This document shows, piece by piece, positions 13,555 through 22,367 of a stretch of DNA of 64,000 nucleotides. Numbering within the stretch: the stretch's first letter is position 1; the number at the start of each line of letters is the position of its first letter. Both the position numbers and the translations under genes were made by a program. The notes below the pieces were generated by a model. That model was not told where the DNA came from. It saw nothing but the letters and a program-made list of their open reading frames with translations, and searched no databases. This stretch comes from Chloroflexota bacterium (GTDB lineage Bacteria; Chloroflexota; Anaerolineae; Anaerolineales; Anaerolineaceae), in NCBI GenBank assembly GCA_012517865.1, contig JAAYUC010000001.1, forward strand, positions 1 through 64,000, read 5' to 3'.

Positions 13555-15285
13555 TTATTTTCTGGCTGCAATACGGTCAGATTCCCGCTGCATTATTCTG
13601 CGGAGAATTGCCAAAGAACAGGCGTAAGTAGAATCCATGCCCTCGTATGAGAGCGCGCCAGCTCCCAGGTTTTGCCCTTTGGTAAGGGGGGTATCCGAGA
13701 CGTAGTGCAGAATGCCCAGGTCAAAGGGAAGCTTGTGCAGGTTGACGATTTCATTTACCGGATGCCGCTGCGGGCGGAAAAGCTCGTAAACGGCGGATAG
13801 ATAGGGTCCGGCTTCCATCTCAATATCCGTGTAGCCTTCTCGGTAGATAACATCCATAACGGTGGCATTTTGCAGGAAGGTGCCCCAAACAGAAACAGCT
13901 TTTTGGTTGTCCAATACCGTGCCGTAAGTCAGGTAGGGGGAAAGGTCCGAAGCCTGAAAATTGTTATCAAAGATATAGGTGTTTTTGGAGTGCTCGTCAT
14001 AGACCACATTCGGGAGAATGACATCCCCGCGCACGCCGTTGAGGCTGGCCGCCTTGCCCATCACATAAATACCCAGAATTTGGGCCGCGTTTTCCGCAAT
14101 CTTGGTCAGGAGGTGATACGCCCCGAACCCGAGGGGATAATCAATATTCACAATAAGCGCGTTGGATTTTGATAAAAATTCCCACTCGGCGCAGCCGGGC
14201 AGGGCGCAAGGGGTGATGCGGGTATCGATGTTGGCTGGAACCAGCCTGGAGAGGTCAATTACCTGGGCTTCTGTATCAAAGGCGTGCACACTTGGAAAGC
14301 GGAAAATTCCGCGTTCCTTCTCAAATCGGAGCTGCTCCTCCCAGGCGGATTTTCCGGCTGGAGACGATTGATATTTCTTCATGACGTAATAGAAGAAGTT
14401 TTCTTTGCTGGATGGGACCGCTTTGTTCTGGATGTCCTGCCACTCTGCCAGCAGCAAAGGTTGTTCCGCGCTGTGAATGAATTCGATCAGTTCCTCCTGT
14501 TTGCTGAGCGCGAAGCCCGACAGAAGGTTCACCAGACTGTGCGTATTGGAGGAGACGAAATAAATCGGGCGCTCGTTTATCTCGGGATACTGCTTTTCAA
14601 TCTTTTCCCACCAGGCTTCTGTCGCTTTTCGGTAATCATTCAGCGAACCACTGAGCAGTTGGAGTCTGAAATTGCACTTCACTTTGGCGAAGAGAGCCAG
14701 AACCTCGCCAAACCGCCCGCCCAATACGGTATAAAGGCGGCCAAGGTCGCTCTCACTCATCTTTAGCTGGTTCGCGAGACGCTGGAAACGTTCAGGATCG
14801 GCAGGAGAGGCATTTAGGTAGAGGTCCGGCGGAATGTGACTCAGCAGGGCATTCAGTTTATTCCACTCAATCTGCAGGGCGGTCAGCGTGGGCACGACAT
14901 CATCAATATCGGAGCGGGAGGCGATATAGCATGCCATTTGCTCTCCGCCGTCGTAAAAACAGCGCCTGCGCCTGGCCCGGGCAGCCACTTCCGTCCAGGT
15001 TTCCACGTTTCCGTAGCCGTGTTGAGAAAAATTGCTCTCTGTTTGCCCAAGAATGATTTTCTTCACATTAAAAATGCACTCCGGTAAGCGCTGCAAGCTG
15101 TAAATCAAAGCGGAAGTATCCGGATACGGCTCGCGCGCGTTTGGATGCAGGGAGGAATTCATCCCGGAATGTACTTCTTCGAGCGAACGAATCTGAATCA
15201 CATTCGTGGACCGCAGCAGTGAGTAGATGGTGCGAAGATAAAGGTCAATTTCCTCAGAGGAGCGAACCGGAACCTGTCTTTCCAT
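13555..15285 (-). CDS. Conserved-looking protein of unknown function with a nucleoside-phosphorylase-like C-terminal part
   Basis: A 576-residue soluble protein without signal peptide or membrane segment. The N-terminal half is helical with no motif I can name. The C-terminal half has features reminiscent of purine nucleoside phosphorylase or AMP nucleosidase folds: IYVMGKAASLNG, a GTVLDNQKAVSVWGTF strand-loop and DIEMEAGPYLSAVYE, where an acidic ME pair follows a strand as in the ribose-binding motif of that superfamily. It may belong to the DUF6909 group, from memory only. AAGGACA before the ATG acts as ribosome-binding site. It stands alone, convergent with valS and divergent from a HAD gene. 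No activity is assigned. Confidence 0.6.
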   Translation of the reverse strand: MERQVPVRSSEEIDLYLRTIYSLLRSTNVIQIRSLEEVHSGMNSSLHPNAREPYPDTSALIYSLQRLPECIFNVKKIILGQTESNFSQHGYGNVETWTEVAARARRRRCFYDGGEQMACYIASRSDIDDVVPTLTALQIEWNKLNALLSHIPPDLYLNASPADPERFQRLANQLKMSESDLGRLYTVLGGRFGEVLALFAKVKCNFRLQLLSGSLNDYRKATEAWWEKIEKQYPEINERPIYFVSSNTHSLVNLLSGFALSKQEELIEFIHSAEQPLLLAEWQDIQNKAVPSSKENFFYYVMKKYQSSPAGKSAWEEQLRFEKERGIFRFPSVHAFDTEAQVIDLSRLVPANIDTRITPCALPGCAEWEFLSKSNALIVNIDYPLGFGAYHLLTKIAENAAQILGIYVMGKAASLNGVRGDVILPNVVYDEHSKNTYIFDNNFQASDLSPYLTYGTVLDNQKAVSVWGTFLQNATVMDVIYREGYTDIEMEAGPYLSAVYELFRPQRHPVNEIVNLHKLPFDLGILHYVSDTPLTKGQNLGAGALSYEGMDSTYACSLAILRRIMQRESDRIAARK

Positions 15286-16002: not shown

Positions 16003-16695
16003 ATGCTCTATCTGGTAGCCACTCCCATCGGCAACCTCGGCGATATGACCTACCGGGCAGTCGAAACCTTGCAAGGGGTCGACCTAATCGCCAGCGAGGA
16101 CACGCGAAAAACCAGCATCCTCCTGAAACATTATGGAATTTCAAAGCCTCAGGTGGCTTTCCATACCATAAACGAAGCCAGGATGACGCCAAAGCTGCTG
16201 GAACGCTTGCTGGAAGGGGAAAACATCGCGCTGGTGACCAACGCCGGCACGCCCGGAATCTCTGACCCGGGCTATTCCCTCACGCATGCTGCCGTTCAGG
16301 CCGGGGTGGCGGTGACGTCCATACCAGGGCCTTCCGCGGTCATCACAGCGCTCACTCTGGCGGATTTGCCTTTGCACAGCTTCACCTTTAAGGGTTTTCC
16401 ACCGCATAAAGAAGGCCCCCGAAAACGCTTTTTGGAACAGGAAAAAGACTCTCCGCACACGTTGGTCTTCTATGAGAGTCCATACCGCCTTATGGCGTTC
16501 CTAAAAAACGCTCTGGAAATATTCGGCGACCGGCGCGCCATGTTGGCCAATGACCTGACCAAGAAGTTTGAGGCCATCTGGCGGGGAAGCCTGCGGGAAA
16601 TACTGGAGCAAATGCAGAACACAGAAATAAAAGGTGAATTCTGCATTTGTATTGAAGGCTGTCCGGAGGAAAGGGTCAGAACGCGAGAGGGGTAA
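16003..16695 (+). CDS. rsmI: 16S rRNA (cytidine1402-2'-O)-methyltransferase RsmI
   Basis: A 230-residue tetrapyrrole-methylase-fold enzyme. Motifs include [16 protein letters not shown] at the N terminus, [18 protein letters not shown] (80-90) and the SAM loop [10 protein letters not shown]. RsmI methylates the 2'-OH of C1402 in the decoding region of 16S rRNA. At 230 residues it lacks most of the C-terminal extension of E. coli RsmI, which has about 286. It overlaps the convergent yhhQ gene by 20 bp at the 3' end. A second RsmI-like gene lies at 22364-23071, so this copy is the better candidate for the housekeeping function. Confidence 0.88.
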
Positions 16696-17407
16696 GGTCC
16701 TTCAAATCAGAGAAAACATCCAGGTTTTCCGCTTTCTTGAGCCTGTTGGTAATCCAATAGGTGGCTGGCGTCATGATGACCTCAACAGCAACCTTGAAAA
16801 GGTAATTGCTGAGCGTGAGCGTCAGGTAAAGCTCCCACGGAAAAACACGCGTCAATGAGCCTACCGCGATGAAAACAGCGGTATCCACCAGTTCCCCGAC
16901 AATTGTGGAGCTTATCGTTCGAACCCAGAGCCATTTCCCCTGTGTGCTGTGTTTGAGCAGCGCCATAATGATGGCATTAGAGAAACTGCCGCCAAGATAC
17001 CCAAGAAAACTTGCCAATACAATTCCGCCAGAACTGACTCCTCCGAGGATTTTATCGTAGGCGGACTGCCCGACAGAATTTAGCCAGGTGGGTTCACCCG
17101 GCAATTTCTGAATAAAGTAAAACATCAGCGCTGTAAATACCAGCCCCAAAAAACCAATCCAGATGACGCGCCGGGAGATTTTGTATCCATAAACTTCAGT
17201 GAGGATATCCCCAAAGATGTAGGCGACTGGAAAAAACAATGTGCCGGCATCAAACGCCAACGGCACGCCGCCCAGGGAAATCCCCCAGTCTATCAATTTG
17301 GCTGATGAGGCGATATTGCTGAGAGCCAAAACCAAAGTGAAGACAACCGTTACGATATCCAGGTAACGATAGGTGAGTGGTGAGGAGGCGGGAGGTTTTT
17401 CGTTCAT
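16676..17407 (-). CDS. yhhQ: Queuosine precursor transporter (YhhQ/QPTR family)
   Basis: A 243-residue membrane protein with about six to seven hydrophobic segments. Family features are the acidic pair in [16 protein letters not shown] and a second conserved block [10 protein letters not shown]. YhhQ imports preQ0 or preQ1 for queuosine synthesis. ATG 17407 is chosen: a longer frame to 17581 would overlap rsmE and add a non-membrane Arg/Ser-rich stretch. The start lies 8 nt after a TATACT box, suggesting a leaderless mRNA. The link to the TGT-like gene 4 kb away suggests salvage of a deazaguanine base. Confidence 0.87.
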
Positions 17408-17414
17408 CAGCGTA

Positions 17415-17441
17415 AAGTATACCTTTTTTACAGGTATACTT
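17415..17441. promoter_or_regulatory. Divergent promoter palindrome between yhhQ and rsmE
   Basis: A perfect 10-bp inverted repeat (AAGTATACCT, 7-nt spacer TTTTTAC, AGGTATACTT) fills most of the 43-bp gap between the two start codons. Each arm contains TATACT pointing outwards, ending 8-10 nt before its ATG. The element can therefore be two face-away -10 boxes giving leaderless or nearly leaderless transcripts. It could also be an operator that represses both genes together. Confidence 0.6.
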
Positions 17442-17450
17442 ATTTCCACA

Positions 17451-18188
17451 ATGCAGCGCTTTTTTGTTGAATCAGACGCGATACAAGGCGGCAAAGTGCG
17501 CTTTCCGGAATCCGCGGCCCGGCAAATGGAGAAGGTCCTGCGGCTGGACCTTGCTCGTGACGAGGTCATCGTCCTCGACAACTCCGGAAAGAGTTACCGC
17601 GTTCGCCTGAACGGCCGGCAGGCTGGACTCCTATCTGGAGAGATTCTGGAGACGAAAGCGCCGGACCCGCGTTTGGAGCTGCGGCTGGAACTTGGCTTCA
17701 GCCTCACCAAGAGGGAAAAGGTGGAATGGATTCTCCAAAAAGGGACTGAACTAGGGGTCAGCGTTTTCAGACCTTTTGTTTCAGAACGAAGCCTTGACCG
17801 GGACCTGAAGTTGGAACATGCCAGACAGGAGCGCTGGAATGCAATTATCCGGGAAGCGGCCGAACAATCCCAGCGTTCACGGCTGCCCGAATTATGCGCG
17901 CCGAGAAATTTCCGGGAGTTGCTTACAGCCTTTCCATCTGAGAGTGTCAGGTTGTTTGCCTGGGAAGGAGCCGCGCCAGAGCTGCAAATGCGGCCCGAAT
18001 GGTTCAGAGGAGCGGCGGCAGTCGGCCTTCTGGTGGGGCCGGAGGGGGGCTTCAGCCTGGAAGAAGCCGGATTGGCTAAGGCGGCGGGGTTCCGACTGTG
18101 TTCGCTTGGACGGCGCGTTTTGCGCATGGAAACTGCCTGCCTGACGGCCTGCGCGCTCAGCGCGCATTACCTCGAAACCGCTCGTTAA
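17451..18188 (+). CDS. rsmE: 16S rRNA (uracil1498-N3)-methyltransferase RsmE
   Basis: A 245-residue SPOUT methyltransferase. It has the N-terminal PUA-like half (RFFVESDAI at the start) and the C-terminal knot with GPEGGFS and LGRRVLRMETA, the SAM-binding signature. RsmE makes m3U1498, also at the 30S decoding region. ATG 17451 is used because the in-frame upstream ATGs fall inside the divergent yhhQ gene. Its stop codon shares bases with that of the convergent RsmF-like gene (TTAA at 18185-18188). Confidence 0.95.
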   Translation: MQRFFVESDAIQGGKVRFPESAARQMEKVLRLDLARDEVIVLDNSGKSYRVRLNGRQAGLLSGEILETKAPDPRLELRLELGFSLTKREKVEWILQKGTELGVSVFRPFVSERSLDRDLKLEHARQERWNAIIREAAEQSQRSRLPELCAPRNFRELLTAFPSESVRLFAWEGAAPELQMRPEWFRGAAAVGLLVGPEGGFSLEEAGLAKAAGFRLCSLGRRVLRMETACLTACALSAHYLETAR

Positions 18189-19654
18189 GTATTGATAATC
18201 GCGCGGGAAGGCAGCAAATTGCGCAGGCGGCCGGGGAGGTTTTTTCCCGCGCCAAGGTTTCTCCCTTCGCTGTCGCGCGCAGCGATAATTGTGCCTTTTT
18301 GGCAGCCTTCGATGTTCAGGCCGCGAATTTCCGCGCCTTGCAGCCATTGAGGGATTAAATCAGCGGGAATGACCCACACATTGCTCTCAAATCGGTCGCC
18401 AAAGCGGCTGACTGATTCCGCGGACAATTCAAAGTGTGAACCGCTCCAGCGGCCAAAGGGAAAACCAAAAGCATAATAAGGCAGGTCCGGGAAGCGTGTC
18501 AGGAATTGACCTGGCAGCAGATACAGCTGCTGCTCTCTGTGGTAGAAACGCAAGTCTCTATTGCTAACTTCCGGGGCGAAATCGAAACCGTATAAGTCTT
18601 GCAGCTCGCGCAGCAGCGCAGCCTGAGCTTTCTCATCCAAAGGCTCAAGGCCGGTTTTACTGAATGGCCGGCAAGGGGGAGCCACAAGCGGCAGCTTGAG
18701 CGGGGCTGTCTTAATCAGTTTCGCGGCAAAGAAACCGTTAGTGCCGGCCACGTGCGGCCACAAGCGCAGGCTTGCGGCAGCCTGTGGGTCGAAGCGCTGC
18801 CCTTCGAAAGCTGTCAGTCCGGGCGCTTTGAGCAAAGATTGGGGGCTTTCGTCCACGCGCGCGGTTCCGGGGTGCGTTTCCAGGAATCTACTCAGAACAG
18901 CTTCGTCTTCTTCGGGGGCGAGCGTGCAGGTCGAGTACACAATTTCCGCCCCGATTTTTGCGGTGCTGACCGCGGATTCCAGCAGCGCCAGCTGGCGCGC
19001 GGCCAACCTTTCCCGCTCTCCTGGGGTTATCGGACGGAATGGGTGACTGGCGGAGACGCGAAGGCCTTCCATGCTGCATGGCGCGTCGAGTAAGACCCGG
19101 TCAAAGGTTTCCGGAAACCAGGCTCCAATCTTTTCGCCAGTGAAGTTGGTAATTGCTGTGTTCGCCGCGCCCCAGGTGAGTAGTACCACCCGCAGCGCCT
19201 GCAGCCTGCCGGTGCTTGAATCATTGGCAAGAATTAAGCCGCTGTCATTGATACTGTCGACCAGCTGCGTGGTCTTGCCGCCGGGTGAAGCTGCCATATC
19301 CAACGTCAGACCGTTGGCGGGAAGCTCTGAGAACAGGGTCACAGGCAGGATTGAAGCCGCGTCCTGCACGTAGTAATACCCAAAGCGGTGCTCGATGGTC
19401 TGTCCGATGGGTGTTTGCGCGGATGAAACCTGCCAGGCAGAGGATGAAAAGCTTATTGGCTCTGATTGCCAGCCGTAGCGTTCGCTCCAGCGGGAAAACG
19501 CTTTTTGTGGGTCAGGGTTCTTCAGCAGATTTACCCTGACAGCCGGATAGGCGGGCTGATTGAGAACATTGAGAAGCTGCGCGTAGTCATCAGGCGTGAG
19601 GTAGGGCCGGTATCGCTCCGCGGCGAAAAGGGAAAGGTGCGCGGAGTCGCTCAT
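18185..19654 (-). CDS. rsmF: RsmF-like 16S rRNA m5C methyltransferase (NOL1/NOP2/Sun family)
   Basis: A 489-residue protein. The SAM motif DMAASPGGKTTQ is at 119-130. The release Cys is C193 in DAPCS and the nucleophile C243 in STCTL, the two-cysteine set of RNA m5C enzymes. There is no NusB domain as in RsmB. Instead a PUA-like C terminus ends with LGAGKNLPGRLRNLLP, as in RsmF, which makes m5C1407 in helix 44. The start overlaps the upstream Rmt-like gene by 4 bp (ATGA). Last gene of the five-gene operon. The exact target base is inferred from the family. Confidence 0.85.
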   Translation of the reverse strand: MSDSAHLSLFAAERYRPYLTPDDYAQLLNVLNQPAYPAVRVNLLKNPDPQKAFSRWSERYGWQSEPISFSSSAWQVSSAQTPIGQTIEHRFGYYYVQDAASILPVTLFSELPANGLTLDMAASPGGKTTQLVDSINDSGLILANDSSTGRLQALRVVLLTWGAANTAITNFTGEKIGAWFPETFDRVLLDAPCSMEGLRVSASHPFRPITPGERERLAARQLALLESAVSTAKIGAEIVYSTCTLAPEEDEAVLSRFLETHPGTARVDESPQSLLKAPGLTAFEGQRFDPQAAASLRLWPHVAGTNGFFAAKLIKTAPLKLPLVAPPCRPFSKTGLEPLDEKAQAALLRELQDLYGFDFAPEVSNRDLRFYHREQQLYLLPGQFLTRFPDLPYYAFGFPFGRWSGSHFELSAESVSRFGDRFESNVWVIPADLIPQWLQGAEIRGLNIEGCQKGTIIAARDSEGRNLGAGKNLPGRLRNLLPSRAIINT

Positions 19655-20475
19655 ATCTGGCTGCGTTCCTTTCGAATGACAAATAACAGCTCATTGACCA
19701 CCTGAATCTTTTCCACGTCCCAACCGCGGCCGGCAGCTGCCTTTGTGATGAGCTGGGTGTGGTAGTCTTCGAGCGAATGATGGCCGCTCAAATCGGAGGC
19801 GGGCAGGCTGGAAACCAAAAGCGGGGCGCGCAATGACGCGAAAAACGGGCCGAGGCAACCGGGTTTTCGTTTTTCAAATCGGTGTGCTTCCTTAAAAAAG
19901 AATATGCAGTCCGCCCCATGCTGAGGGGGTTCCGCGAGGATATCCTGATGGATCGCGCGGGCATTGGGGTATTTTCGTAAGAAAAATTGATTAAGGAATT
20001 CCAGGCGCGGTTTGTGAATGTCGTACGCGAGAAATTGGACTTCCTGAGGCAGACCCAACCATGGAAGCAGCAGCGGGTCCAATGCGCACGCTAGGTCAAG
20101 GATTACTGCAGGGCTGCCGATGATATCCCGCAAAGCCCGGCAAAAAGCATCCAGATGCCCAAGCCTTTCCCGGGTGGAGGCGTGCCTGGCCATCAAATTC
20201 GCAGTCCAGGTTTTCACTTCTGTGTCGGACGGATTGCCCTCAAAGAAGCTCAGCATCCTGGCAGTCTCCGCGGGATAGTCAATATCCTCCAGATAAGGAG
20301 CGACAATGTTGTGTAATTTCTCGCGGAAGGCGGATTTTATCGCCGCTGCGCTGCCGCCTTTGGCAGTAAGTTCAGCCAGAATCTCGCGAAGCATGGCTTC
20401 CGGCAGGTCCATCTGGCGGTATTTTCGTGAAGACCGCGTCTCCGCAATGATTTTTGCTGTGAAACTTTCGTCCAT
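19651..20475 (-). CDS. Divergent ArmA/Rmt (FmrO)-family protein, possibly catalytically altered paralogue
   Basis: A 274-residue protein homologous along its length to the neighbouring Rmt-like protein. Shared blocks are HASTRERLGHLD (98-109), the SAM motif region LDLACALDPLL (126-136) and C-terminal NELLFVI. Key positions differ: the usual Gly-Leu-Asn of LDLACGLNP is Ala-Leu-Asp, the FLLK loop has become FFFKEAHRF, and the PxRSLGGRxKGM signature is replaced by LPASDLSGHHSL. ATG 20475, 4 nt after the preceding stop, is preferred; ATG 20508 would overlap that gene by 29 bp but has no visible ribosome-binding site. It may be an inactive partner subunit or a methylase with a new target. Function unknown. 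Confidence 0.75.
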   Translation of the reverse strand: MDESFTAKIIAETRSSRKYRQMDLPEAMLREILAELTAKGGSAAAIKSAFREKLHNIVAPYLEDIDYPAETARMLSFFEGNPSDTEVKTWTANLMARHASTRERLGHLDAFCRALRDIIGSPAVILDLACALDPLLLPWLGLPQEVQFLAYDIHKPRLEFLNQFFLRKYPNARAIHQDILAEPPQHGADCIFFFKEAHRFEKRKPGCLGPFFASLRAPLLVSSLPASDLSGHHSLEDYHTQLITKAAAGRGWDVEKIQVVNELLFVIRKERSQI

Positions 20476-20479
20476 TGGC

Positions 20480-21292
20480 TCACCGCGAGAGAAGAAAGAC
20501 CAACTCATTTGGGAACTCGAAACCGCGAACCTTAAAAGACGTGTTTTGAGTTAGTTGCGCGAATTGGTGCGCGTAGGTCTGGCGCATTCCTTTCTCACGC
20601 CCGCCCAGGCTCCTGGCTGGATATGAAATCAGAATGTGCTCAGCATTGATTTCCGCCAGGAGGCGCGCACCCAAGGTTTTGTCCAATTGGTCAAGGCAGG
20701 GCAGCGTTTTCAGCAGAAAAGCCACCTGCACCTGCTGGCGCGGAACGCAGGCGCTCAAATCGCAGGGAAGCGCATTTCCCGTAATATTTCGCTGATTAAA
20801 AAACCGATTCAAAAAATCCAGCATCGGCAAAACGACATCACAGGCATAATAAACGAAATCTGGAGAGAGCGGCATCCAGGGCTGCGCCAGCGGGTTTAAC
20901 CCGCAAGCCAAATCCAGAACCGAATGAACTGGCGATATCTCCGCCAGGCAGGTCTTGAAAAAATGACCGATGTAAGGCAATCGTTCGGCTGTGGAGTTGT
21001 GCAGGCGCATCAGCCGCGTGCAATAGTCCTGCCACGCGGGCTCATCATCAGCGGGAATTGTATTCAGAATATCTTCCCATTTCGTGTAGTTAATTTCCGG
21101 AGCAAGGAAGGCTCCTGTCACCTGGTGCAGACGCGTCCGGGCTGTTTTTAGCGCAGTCCGGATATCGCCGCGTTTCTCCAATTCCTCAGATGCCACGCGC
21201 TCGACCAGGCTGGGAATAATTTGGGCGTACTTGGAGTTCCTGCAAATCGCCCGCACCAAAGTTTCAAGGTCTTCAGGGCTGCTGGGAGTCAT
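20480..21292 (-). CDS. 16S rRNA (guanine1405-N7)-methyltransferase family protein (ArmA/Rmt/FmrO type)
   Basis: A 270-residue protein matching the Rmt family motif by motif: ARTRLH at 51-56, LHNSTAERLP at 97-106, SAM motif LDLACGLNPLA at 126-136, FLLKTLPCL, ISYPARSLGGREKGM at 222-236 and NELVFLL. This family methylates N7 of G1405 in helix 44 and gives high-level resistance to 4,6-disubstituted deoxystreptamine aminoglycosides. All recognised motifs are intact, so activity is likely. It starts inside the end of the TGT-like gene (20-bp overlap). There is no antibiotic biosynthesis cluster or mobile element nearby, so a resident role in ribosome modification is as likely as resistance. Confidence 0.87.
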   Translation of the reverse strand: MTPSSPEDLETLVRAICRNSKYAQIIPSLVERVASEELEKRGDIRTALKTARTRLHQVTGAFLAPEINYTKWEDILNTIPADDEPAWQDYCTRLMRLHNSTAERLPYIGHFFKTCLAEISPVHSVLDLACGLNPLAQPWMPLSPDFVYYACDVVLPMLDFLNRFFNQRNITGNALPCDLSACVPRQQVQVAFLLKTLPCLDQLDKTLGARLLAEINAEHILISYPARSLGGREKGMRQTYAHQFAQLTQNTSFKVRGFEFPNELVFLLSR

Positions 21293-22367
21293 TTCGCAAC
21301 TGCTCCATTAAGCGGGTCATAAAACGCAGGTTGTGTTGGGTCGCCAGCCTGAAATAGGCGCTGTCTTGCATGCGGTAGAGATGGCTGAGATAAGCCAGAG
21401 AATAATGGCGGCAGCAGGGGCAATCGCAGCCCGGGGAGACAGCTTGGTGGCTGCGCATGTACTGTTCATCGTTGATGTAACGGAAGCCGAACCAGTCATT
21501 TCCTTTTCCGGGTACCGCCTTTGGAGATTTGAGCGCGTAAAGTCTGCCATGCCTGGCGTCGCGGGTCGGCATAGCGCAGTCAAACAGCTCGTATCCCATC
21601 CGGTAACAAGCCGCGACGCTGACAGGATGCCCAATCCCAAGCGCGTGGATAGGGAACTGAGGGGGGACGACGGAGCGGGTGTATTCCAGAATGTCCGTAA
21701 GCAGATTGGATTGGTCATCAAGCGGCCAGCCGCCAAATCCAAACCCGTCAAAGCCAATTTCCAGCAGCGATTCCGCGCAAATTTTGCGCAATTCAGGGTA
21801 ACCACCGCCTTGGATAACGCCAAAGAGGAGGGGACGGTCTTTAGCGTCCACTTTTCGGGAGGAAAGTTGTTCCTGAAAGGCTGCTTTGGCGCGCTTTGCC
21901 CATTTGATGGTGCGGCTGACTGACAATTGCTGTTCCTGGAATGGAGCGTCGACGTGCGTGCAGTCGTCCAGGCAGATGAGAATATCCGCTCCGTACCCAA
22001 ATTGGAGCTGGATGCTTTTTTCAGGGGTGAGAATGAGCTTGCGGGATGAAGATTCCGGTCGGAAGATGATGCCATTTTCACCCAGACTGCCAAATTTCGC
22101 GTTCTGACGGATAAGGGAATAAGCCTGGAAACCGCCGGAGTCGGTCATGATGATGCCGTCCCAGGCAGACATTCGGTGCAGGCCGCCCAGGCCTTGAACA
22201 ACTGACGAGCCTGGTTTTTGCATCAGATGGAAGGCGTTCATCATCAACGCTTTAACCCCGACTTCGGTTAAATCCGCACTGGTAAGGCTGCGCACAAACC
22301 CATAGGTGGCATCCGGCAGAAAGGCAGGCAGGGATAATGAATGGGCGCGTACGTCAAGTGTCTTCAC
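21273..22367 (-). CDS. Divergent tRNA-guanine transglycosylase-like enzyme
   Basis: A 364-residue TGT-fold protein. Catalytic features are complete: general acid/base D76 in DSGGFQ, base-recognition D134 in LDDC and Q186 in GVIQGG, nucleophile D263 in FDCAMPTR, and the zinc site C314-x-C316-x2-C319 with H345. Two regions depart from standard bacterial TGT: the start block FLPDATYGFVRSLTS, and the base-pocket loop GGWPLDD (212-218) where queuosine-type enzymes have GGLAVGE. It may insert preQ1, preQ0, queuine or another deazaguanine, and its RNA target is open. GTG start, 4-bp GTGA overlap with the upstream RsmI-like gene. Confidence 0.85.
   Translation of the reverse strand: MKTLDVRAHSLSLPAFLPDATYGFVRSLTSADLTEVGVKALMMNAFHLMQKPGSSVVQGLGGLHRMSAWDGIIMTDSGGFQAYSLIRQNAKFGSLGENGIIFRPESSSRKLILTPEKSIQLQFGYGADILICLDDCTHVDAPFQEQQLSVSRTIKWAKRAKAAFQEQLSSRKVDAKDRPLLFGVIQGGGYPELRKICAESLLEIGFDGFGFGGWPLDDQSNLLTDILEYTRSVVPPQFPIHALGIGHPVSVAACYRMGYELFDCAMPTRDARHGRLYALKSPKAVPGKGNDWFGFRYINDEQYMRSHQAVSPGCDCPCCRHYSLAYLSHLYRMQDSAYFRLATQHNLRFMTRLMEQLRNDSQQP

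Follow-up and report, generated by a model that had tools for sequence, protein, structure and literature searches.

The origin of the acquired Rmt resistance genes is a long-standing question. Among known systems, the closest to the two proteins analysed here are the acquired Rmt/ArmA enzymes (RmtB, RmtC, RmtD, RmtE, RmtF, RmtG and ArmA) and Sgm of the FmrO group (PDB 3lcu). One source places RsmF (C1407), RsmI/RsmH (C1402) and RsmE (U1498) around G1405, and describes RmtC and Sgm as blocking RsmF and ArmA as blocking RsmI (PMC12406665). For rmtG, one article groups the gene in an operon together with rsmH, tgt and 'rsmL' (PMC9311965), and another describes a tRNA ribosyltransferase gene preceding it (PMC3904158). 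In our literature search we found no paper that generalizes the TGT–rmt link beyond the rmtG operon, and none that links Rmt to Chloroflexota. Here we describe a chromosomal locus from a deep-branching anaerobe of the Anaerolineaceae (Chloroflexota) that carries two genes of the FmrO family, A and B, and we present evidence that B looks like an ancient sister enzyme that has been conserved, its active site remodelled, and not like a broken copy of A.

The locus lies in a 64,000-nt stretch of contig JAAYUC010000001.1 (the window), from an assembly of 1.92 Mb in 51 contigs whose closest named relatives are Anaerolineaceae metagenome bins (the B protein of UBA6073 is 73% identical). An operon on the minus strand has the order RsmI-like, TGT2, A, B, RsmF-like. 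Checking of the open reading frames located copy A (20480..21292, 270 aa) and copy B (19651..20508, 285 aa) where, and on the strand on which, the initial annotation had placed them. The start of A is overlapped by TGT2 (21273..22367, minus strand), a divergent paralogue of tRNA-guanine transglycosylase (PF01702, 301 bits), which is preceded by the second RsmI-type methyltransferase gene of the genome (22364..23071, minus strand; TIGR00096, 171.8 bits against a cut-off of 167.9). B is followed by an RsmB/F-type rRNA methyltransferase gene (18185..19654, minus strand; PF01189 plus the RsmF N-terminal domain). Convergent with the operon is a gene for an RsmE-type methyltransferase (17373..18188, plus strand; TIGR00046, 149.7 bits), and farther along lies RsmI proper, the higher-scoring of the two (16003..16695, plus strand; TIGR00096, 226.5 bits). 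The window thus groups the kinds of enzyme that modify positions around G1405, and the cluster seems to tune the ribosomal decoding centre. Compared with the Sgm/FmrO group, the genes described here are chromosomal, stand amid rRNA-modification genes and are of two kinds, one of which, B, is without the signature loop. Each of the two ends of the cluster is flanked by an RsmI-type gene, both scoring above the TIGR00096 cut-off. Elsewhere in the window (13555–15285), a 576-aa protein of unknown function matches DUF6909 over nearly its full length (746 bits).

Copy A scored far beyond chance against PF07091 (FmrO), with 161.1 bits against the Pfam cut-off of 27, and below the cut-off of the NCBIfam Rmt equivalog NF000466 (210.8 versus 250 bits); its best solved relative by sequence is Sgm (E = 5e-46). 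It shares the Pfam family with the acquired Rmt/ArmA enzymes, from which it differs in its identity to them of about 23–33%, in falling under the equivalog cut-off and in not being mobile. For residue conservation we aligned 96 A rows and 94 B rows, one of each duplicating the window sequence (locus L001). In agreement with the initial annotation, which had credited the first copy with all recognizable Rmt motifs, A contains LDLACGLNPLA and SLGGREKGM and keeps every motif common to the Rmts. The SLGGREKGM loop (residues 228–236, 20585..20611, minus strand) is conserved across the A rows (G235 in 96/96, K234 in 93/96 and M236 in 92/96) and is followed, as in Rmts, by a tyrosine (Y240, 95/96). 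The AlphaFold2 model of A has a pLDDT of 93.7. On these grounds A is probably an m7G1405 methyltransferase of 16S rRNA.

Copy B likewise exceeded the PF07091 cut-off (133.7 versus 27 bits) and scored below that of NF000466 (134.8 versus 250 bits). The initial assignment of both copies to the Rmt/FmrO family stands. Sgm is its best solved relative both by sequence (E = 1e-23) and by fold: AlphaFold2 predicts a confident Rmt fold (pLDDT 94.5, with residues 1–7 below 50), for which the best Foldseek match is Sgm (TM 0.81), each of the best 16 matches is an Sgm, Rmt or ArmA entry, and a structure of RmtC with SAH is among the matches. The true start of B may be codon 12 (~20475), near the starts of its relatives, which would give a protein of 274 aa. 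In B, SAM motif I (LDLACALDPL, residues 137–146, 20071..20100, minus strand; the full segment reads LDLACALDPLL) keeps D138 in 94/94 rows, and residue 142 is Gly in 51 rows and Ala in 43; loss of this Gly, remarked on initially, therefore holds for the window copy and fails as a rule for B. RmtC, which we take to be an active resistance enzyme, has the sequence DAGCALNPF, in which Ala occupies the equivalent position. Because RmtC shares this Ala, the Gly-to-Ala change is not evidence of lost SAM binding, and we rejected it as a mark of dead SAM binding in B. Seven residues of B (H109, R115, D138, D163, D189, K206 and E273) are kept in 94/94 rows; among them are D138, D163, D189 and R115, presumed SAM-binding residues of the kind that a pseudo-methyltransferase would have lost.

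The two copies diverge in two further segments. A motif specific to B (KEAHRFEKRKPG, residues 206–217, 19858..19893, minus strand), with K206, E207 and R210 in 94/94 rows and H209 and R214 in 92/94, has the pattern KEAHRxExR, occupies the place of KTLPCLEQ in A and replaces the corresponding segment of the acquired Rmts. The SLGGRxKGM loop is altered in every B row, as the initial reading of the window copy had it: the column of G235 (A numbering) is deleted in 94/94, and the column of Y240 holds His or Gln in 81/94. Two B-type genes of another family, f9 (L172 and L174), carry KEMPRFERN, adjoin RsmE and are distant from A; these two rows possibly represent an earlier or intermediate state of the B motif. 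Among the 25 most similar pairs, some of which repeat one genome, dN/dS was 0.07–0.21 for B, indicating purifying selection, mostly 0.03–0.15 for A (one pair at 0.34) and about 0.04–0.07 for TGT2. The initial annotation had called the second copy degenerate; its own invariant motifs, intact SAM pocket, dN/dS and confident fold contradict this, and we rejected decay of B on its conserved motifs, selection and fold. We lean towards B being a SAM-dependent rRNA methyltransferase with a different target.

To place the two copies, rows shorter than 230 aa or containing X were excluded from the tree input; for an earlier tree, 20 rows had been removed from the row set and 3 added, and the careful tree comprised 58 rows after four odd or long rows (L163, L200, L057 and L199) were left out. 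In the 58-row tree, B formed one clade (support 100/99), and A fell into a 33-row clade (100/98) together with single-copy genes from elsewhere in the phylum. Forcing the A rows of the family together with B, a grouping defined after seeing a tree, cost 64 log units and was rejected (AU p = 0.004). B-type genes also came from f9 and from two additional bins of the Anaerolineae. The position of B relative to the Rmts, Sgm and A had a support of 47 in one tree and was an open fork in the 58-row tree. As to the grouping with an unrelated methylase that the initial annotation had named as a refuting outcome, B belongs to the same family as A. Because B is a separate clade and the joining of A with B is rejected, B appears to be an old side lineage set beside A and not a decayed A copy.

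These results bear on two ways of making B a derivative or dependant of A. The initial annotation took B for a recent duplicate of A, decaying or freshly changed, and the adjacency of the genes, their common family and their motif differences would fit such an origin. The tree and the AU test, however, led us to reject a recent tandem duplication of A, contradicting the local duplication that had been suggested, and the purifying selection, invariant motifs and confident fold of B also speak against this view, which we regard as very improbable. The same annotation raised a heterodimer with a pseudo-subunit, that is, B as a catalytically inactive partner of A that gives RNA binding or stability; METTL14 is a partner of this inactive kind for METTL3. 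Gene order agrees with such a partnership, with B following A in 74 of 92 A rows and overlapping it by 4 bp in 47 of those 74. B also lacks the Rmt signature loop, and its conserved residues would also suit an inactive partner that binds SAM, although the SAM-pocket positions are invariant. Fifteen genomes have one FmrO match. In six of them, all from one genus, an unbroken TGT2–A–RsmF cluster has lost B. Four have B only, and all four are fragmented assemblies or have B at a contig end; B without A in an unbroken cluster was never seen in Anaerolineaceae, as expected of a subunit. A further three (G100, G054 and G063) have A, and B is either absent or present as a fragment close to the end of a contig, one (G072) has a weak partial FmrO match, and one (G038) has a divergent A-type gene. 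In G038, a complete genome, this single gene (L163) adjoins RsmF, and neither TGT2 nor B is present. In several genera, moreover, A (with TGT2) and B (with RsmF) are separated by kilobases or found on separate contigs. The six genomes without B and the separated genes run counter to an obligate heterodimer; an A–B heterodimer is possible and not required, and we consider an inactive-subunit role for B unlikely, if less so than a recent duplication.

A third view holds that A and B provide intrinsic aminoglycoside resistance or self-protection and not a housekeeping function. The relatives of both proteins are resistance enzymes, and G1405 is intact in the 16S rRNA of relatives: positions 1402–1408 were unchanged in 25/25 family 16S genes that reach this region, a set that includes one gene from an FmrO-less genome and two from G038, with five further loci too short. 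The assembly of the window contains no 16S gene, so the target sequence was checked in relatives only. Against this view, a Pfam scan of 27 neighbouring proteins, a subset of the open reading frames between 4.9 and 41 kb, revealed no mobile element or resistance cluster near A and B and no biosynthesis genes, and the position of the pair among rRNA-modification genes is fixed, with a conserved gene order. At 0.535, the pair and the window have the same G+C content. FmrO genes are also near-universal in the family, with matches in 127 of 147 Anaerolineaceae genomes, of which 112 had at least two; they were found in 76 of 400 genomes sampled across Chloroflexota, mostly as a single copy outside the family, and in none of 14 control genomes. 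The pair co-occurs widely beyond the window, and cultured carriers include Bellilinea caldifistulae, Thermanaerothrix daxensis, Flexilinea flocculi, Ornatilinea apprima and Leptolinea tardivitalis. The initial annotation had seen neither a mobile element nor an antibiotic cluster and had suspected a resident family in place of acquired resistance; both points were borne out by the neighbour scan and the distribution. Our literature search found nothing usable on a resistance phenotype in Anaerolineaceae. We judge a resistance or self-protection role improbable.

The gene preceding A in the operon is an extra copy beside canonical TGT (301 versus 532 bits against PF01702), and QueA is also encoded in the genome. 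Residues of TGT2 that align with the presumed catalytic Asp and Zn-site residues of bacterial tRNA-guanine transglycosylase are kept in nearly all rows. In contrast to canonical queuosine TGT, which has GGL in the base-recognition loop, all 113 TGT2 rows read GGWP (residues 212–215, 21723..21734, minus strand). TGT2 is directly upstream of A in 78/92 rows; of the other 14, seven are at contig ends, five have TGT2 nearby outside our strict limits and two (L060 and L163) are without it in the locus. Across 68 genomes, TGT2 was present in 26 of 28 genomes with FmrO and in 0 of 40 without, the latter including some incomplete genomes that show only TGT fragments. These genomes are not independent, but several genera lack both genes together. 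The two FmrO genomes without TGT2 are G038 and G515, and TGT2 is split in G464. In f9, TGT2 is present and unlinked to FmrO; because the association persists there without linkage, the tie between the two genes looks functional.

Querying 72,556 plasmids with TGT2 by tblastn, the best 60 of 67 records being examined, retrieved 15 records with TGT2 at 45–48% identity, the other matches listed being at 36% or less. Among the matches listed, all 15 of these genes adjoin an rmt gene: rmtG in 8 records, rmtD1 and rmtD2, rmtB2 in 2 records with one gene in between, and rmtE2 in 3 records with the TGT truncated. The acquired genes rmtB2, rmtD, rmtE2 and rmtG therefore have a TGT2 gene nearby, as A does. 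Records with a GGWP paralogue near rmt or FmrO are L253, L254, L255, L256–L260 and L208. A quick tree placed the TGT2s of plasmids outside those of Chloroflexota; a direct escape of the plasmid rmt genes from this phylum is therefore not supported, and the donors probably belong to another phylum. Downstream of the plasmid rmt genes we found no remnants of a second FmrO gene: behind rmtG lies a fragment of RsmI, and behind rmtD1 and rmtE2 lie open reading frames unlike A, B, RsmI and RsmF. The open reading frame that follows rmtE2 in L255 (5711–6028) resembles the start of a lipoprotein and may mark the donor chromosome.

Taken as a whole, the locus is best read, with modest confidence and from sequence evidence, as a resident decoding-site modification operon made up of the RsmI-like, TGT2, A, B and RsmF-like genes beside RsmE. 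A would place an N7 methyl group on G1405 of 16S rRNA, a housekeeping modification that is always present. B would be a second ancient member of the fold of A that has kept SAM binding, has lost the SLGGRxKGM...Y loop and, following strand 4, carries the charged motif KEAHRxExR, which is invariant. It would most likely methylate another nucleotide or atom of the 30S decoding region, acting alongside RsmF and not as a subunit of A. In favour of this reading, 16S positions 1402–1408 are unchanged in the relatives, and RsmF follows B in 86/92 B rows, most of which have A and TGT2 upstream; against it, both proteins score under the Rmt equivalog cut-off. A bolder proposal, which we put forward as speculation, has A and TGT2 both acting at guanine position 7 in the same 16S region as parts of an ancient module of the decoding centre, A by N7-methylation and TGT2 by base exchange to a 7-deazaguanine. 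B would add a further mark, and the plasmid genes rmtB2, rmtD, rmtE2 and rmtG would be pieces escaped from such a module in another phylum. If true, the action of TGT2 on 16S rRNA would, to our knowledge, be the first rRNA transglycosylation known.

The resident Rmt relatives, together with the link of TGT2 to rmtB2, rmtD, rmtE2 and rmtG of hospital plasmids, point to an origin of these genes in a housekeeping rRNA-modification module, and TGT2 may serve as a genomic marker for tracing rmt donors. B would be a natural experiment in re-aiming a G1405-type enzyme, available in cultured species that are not pathogenic. For the Anaerolineaceae, a large family of anaerobes, Rmt relatives are standard chromosomal equipment.
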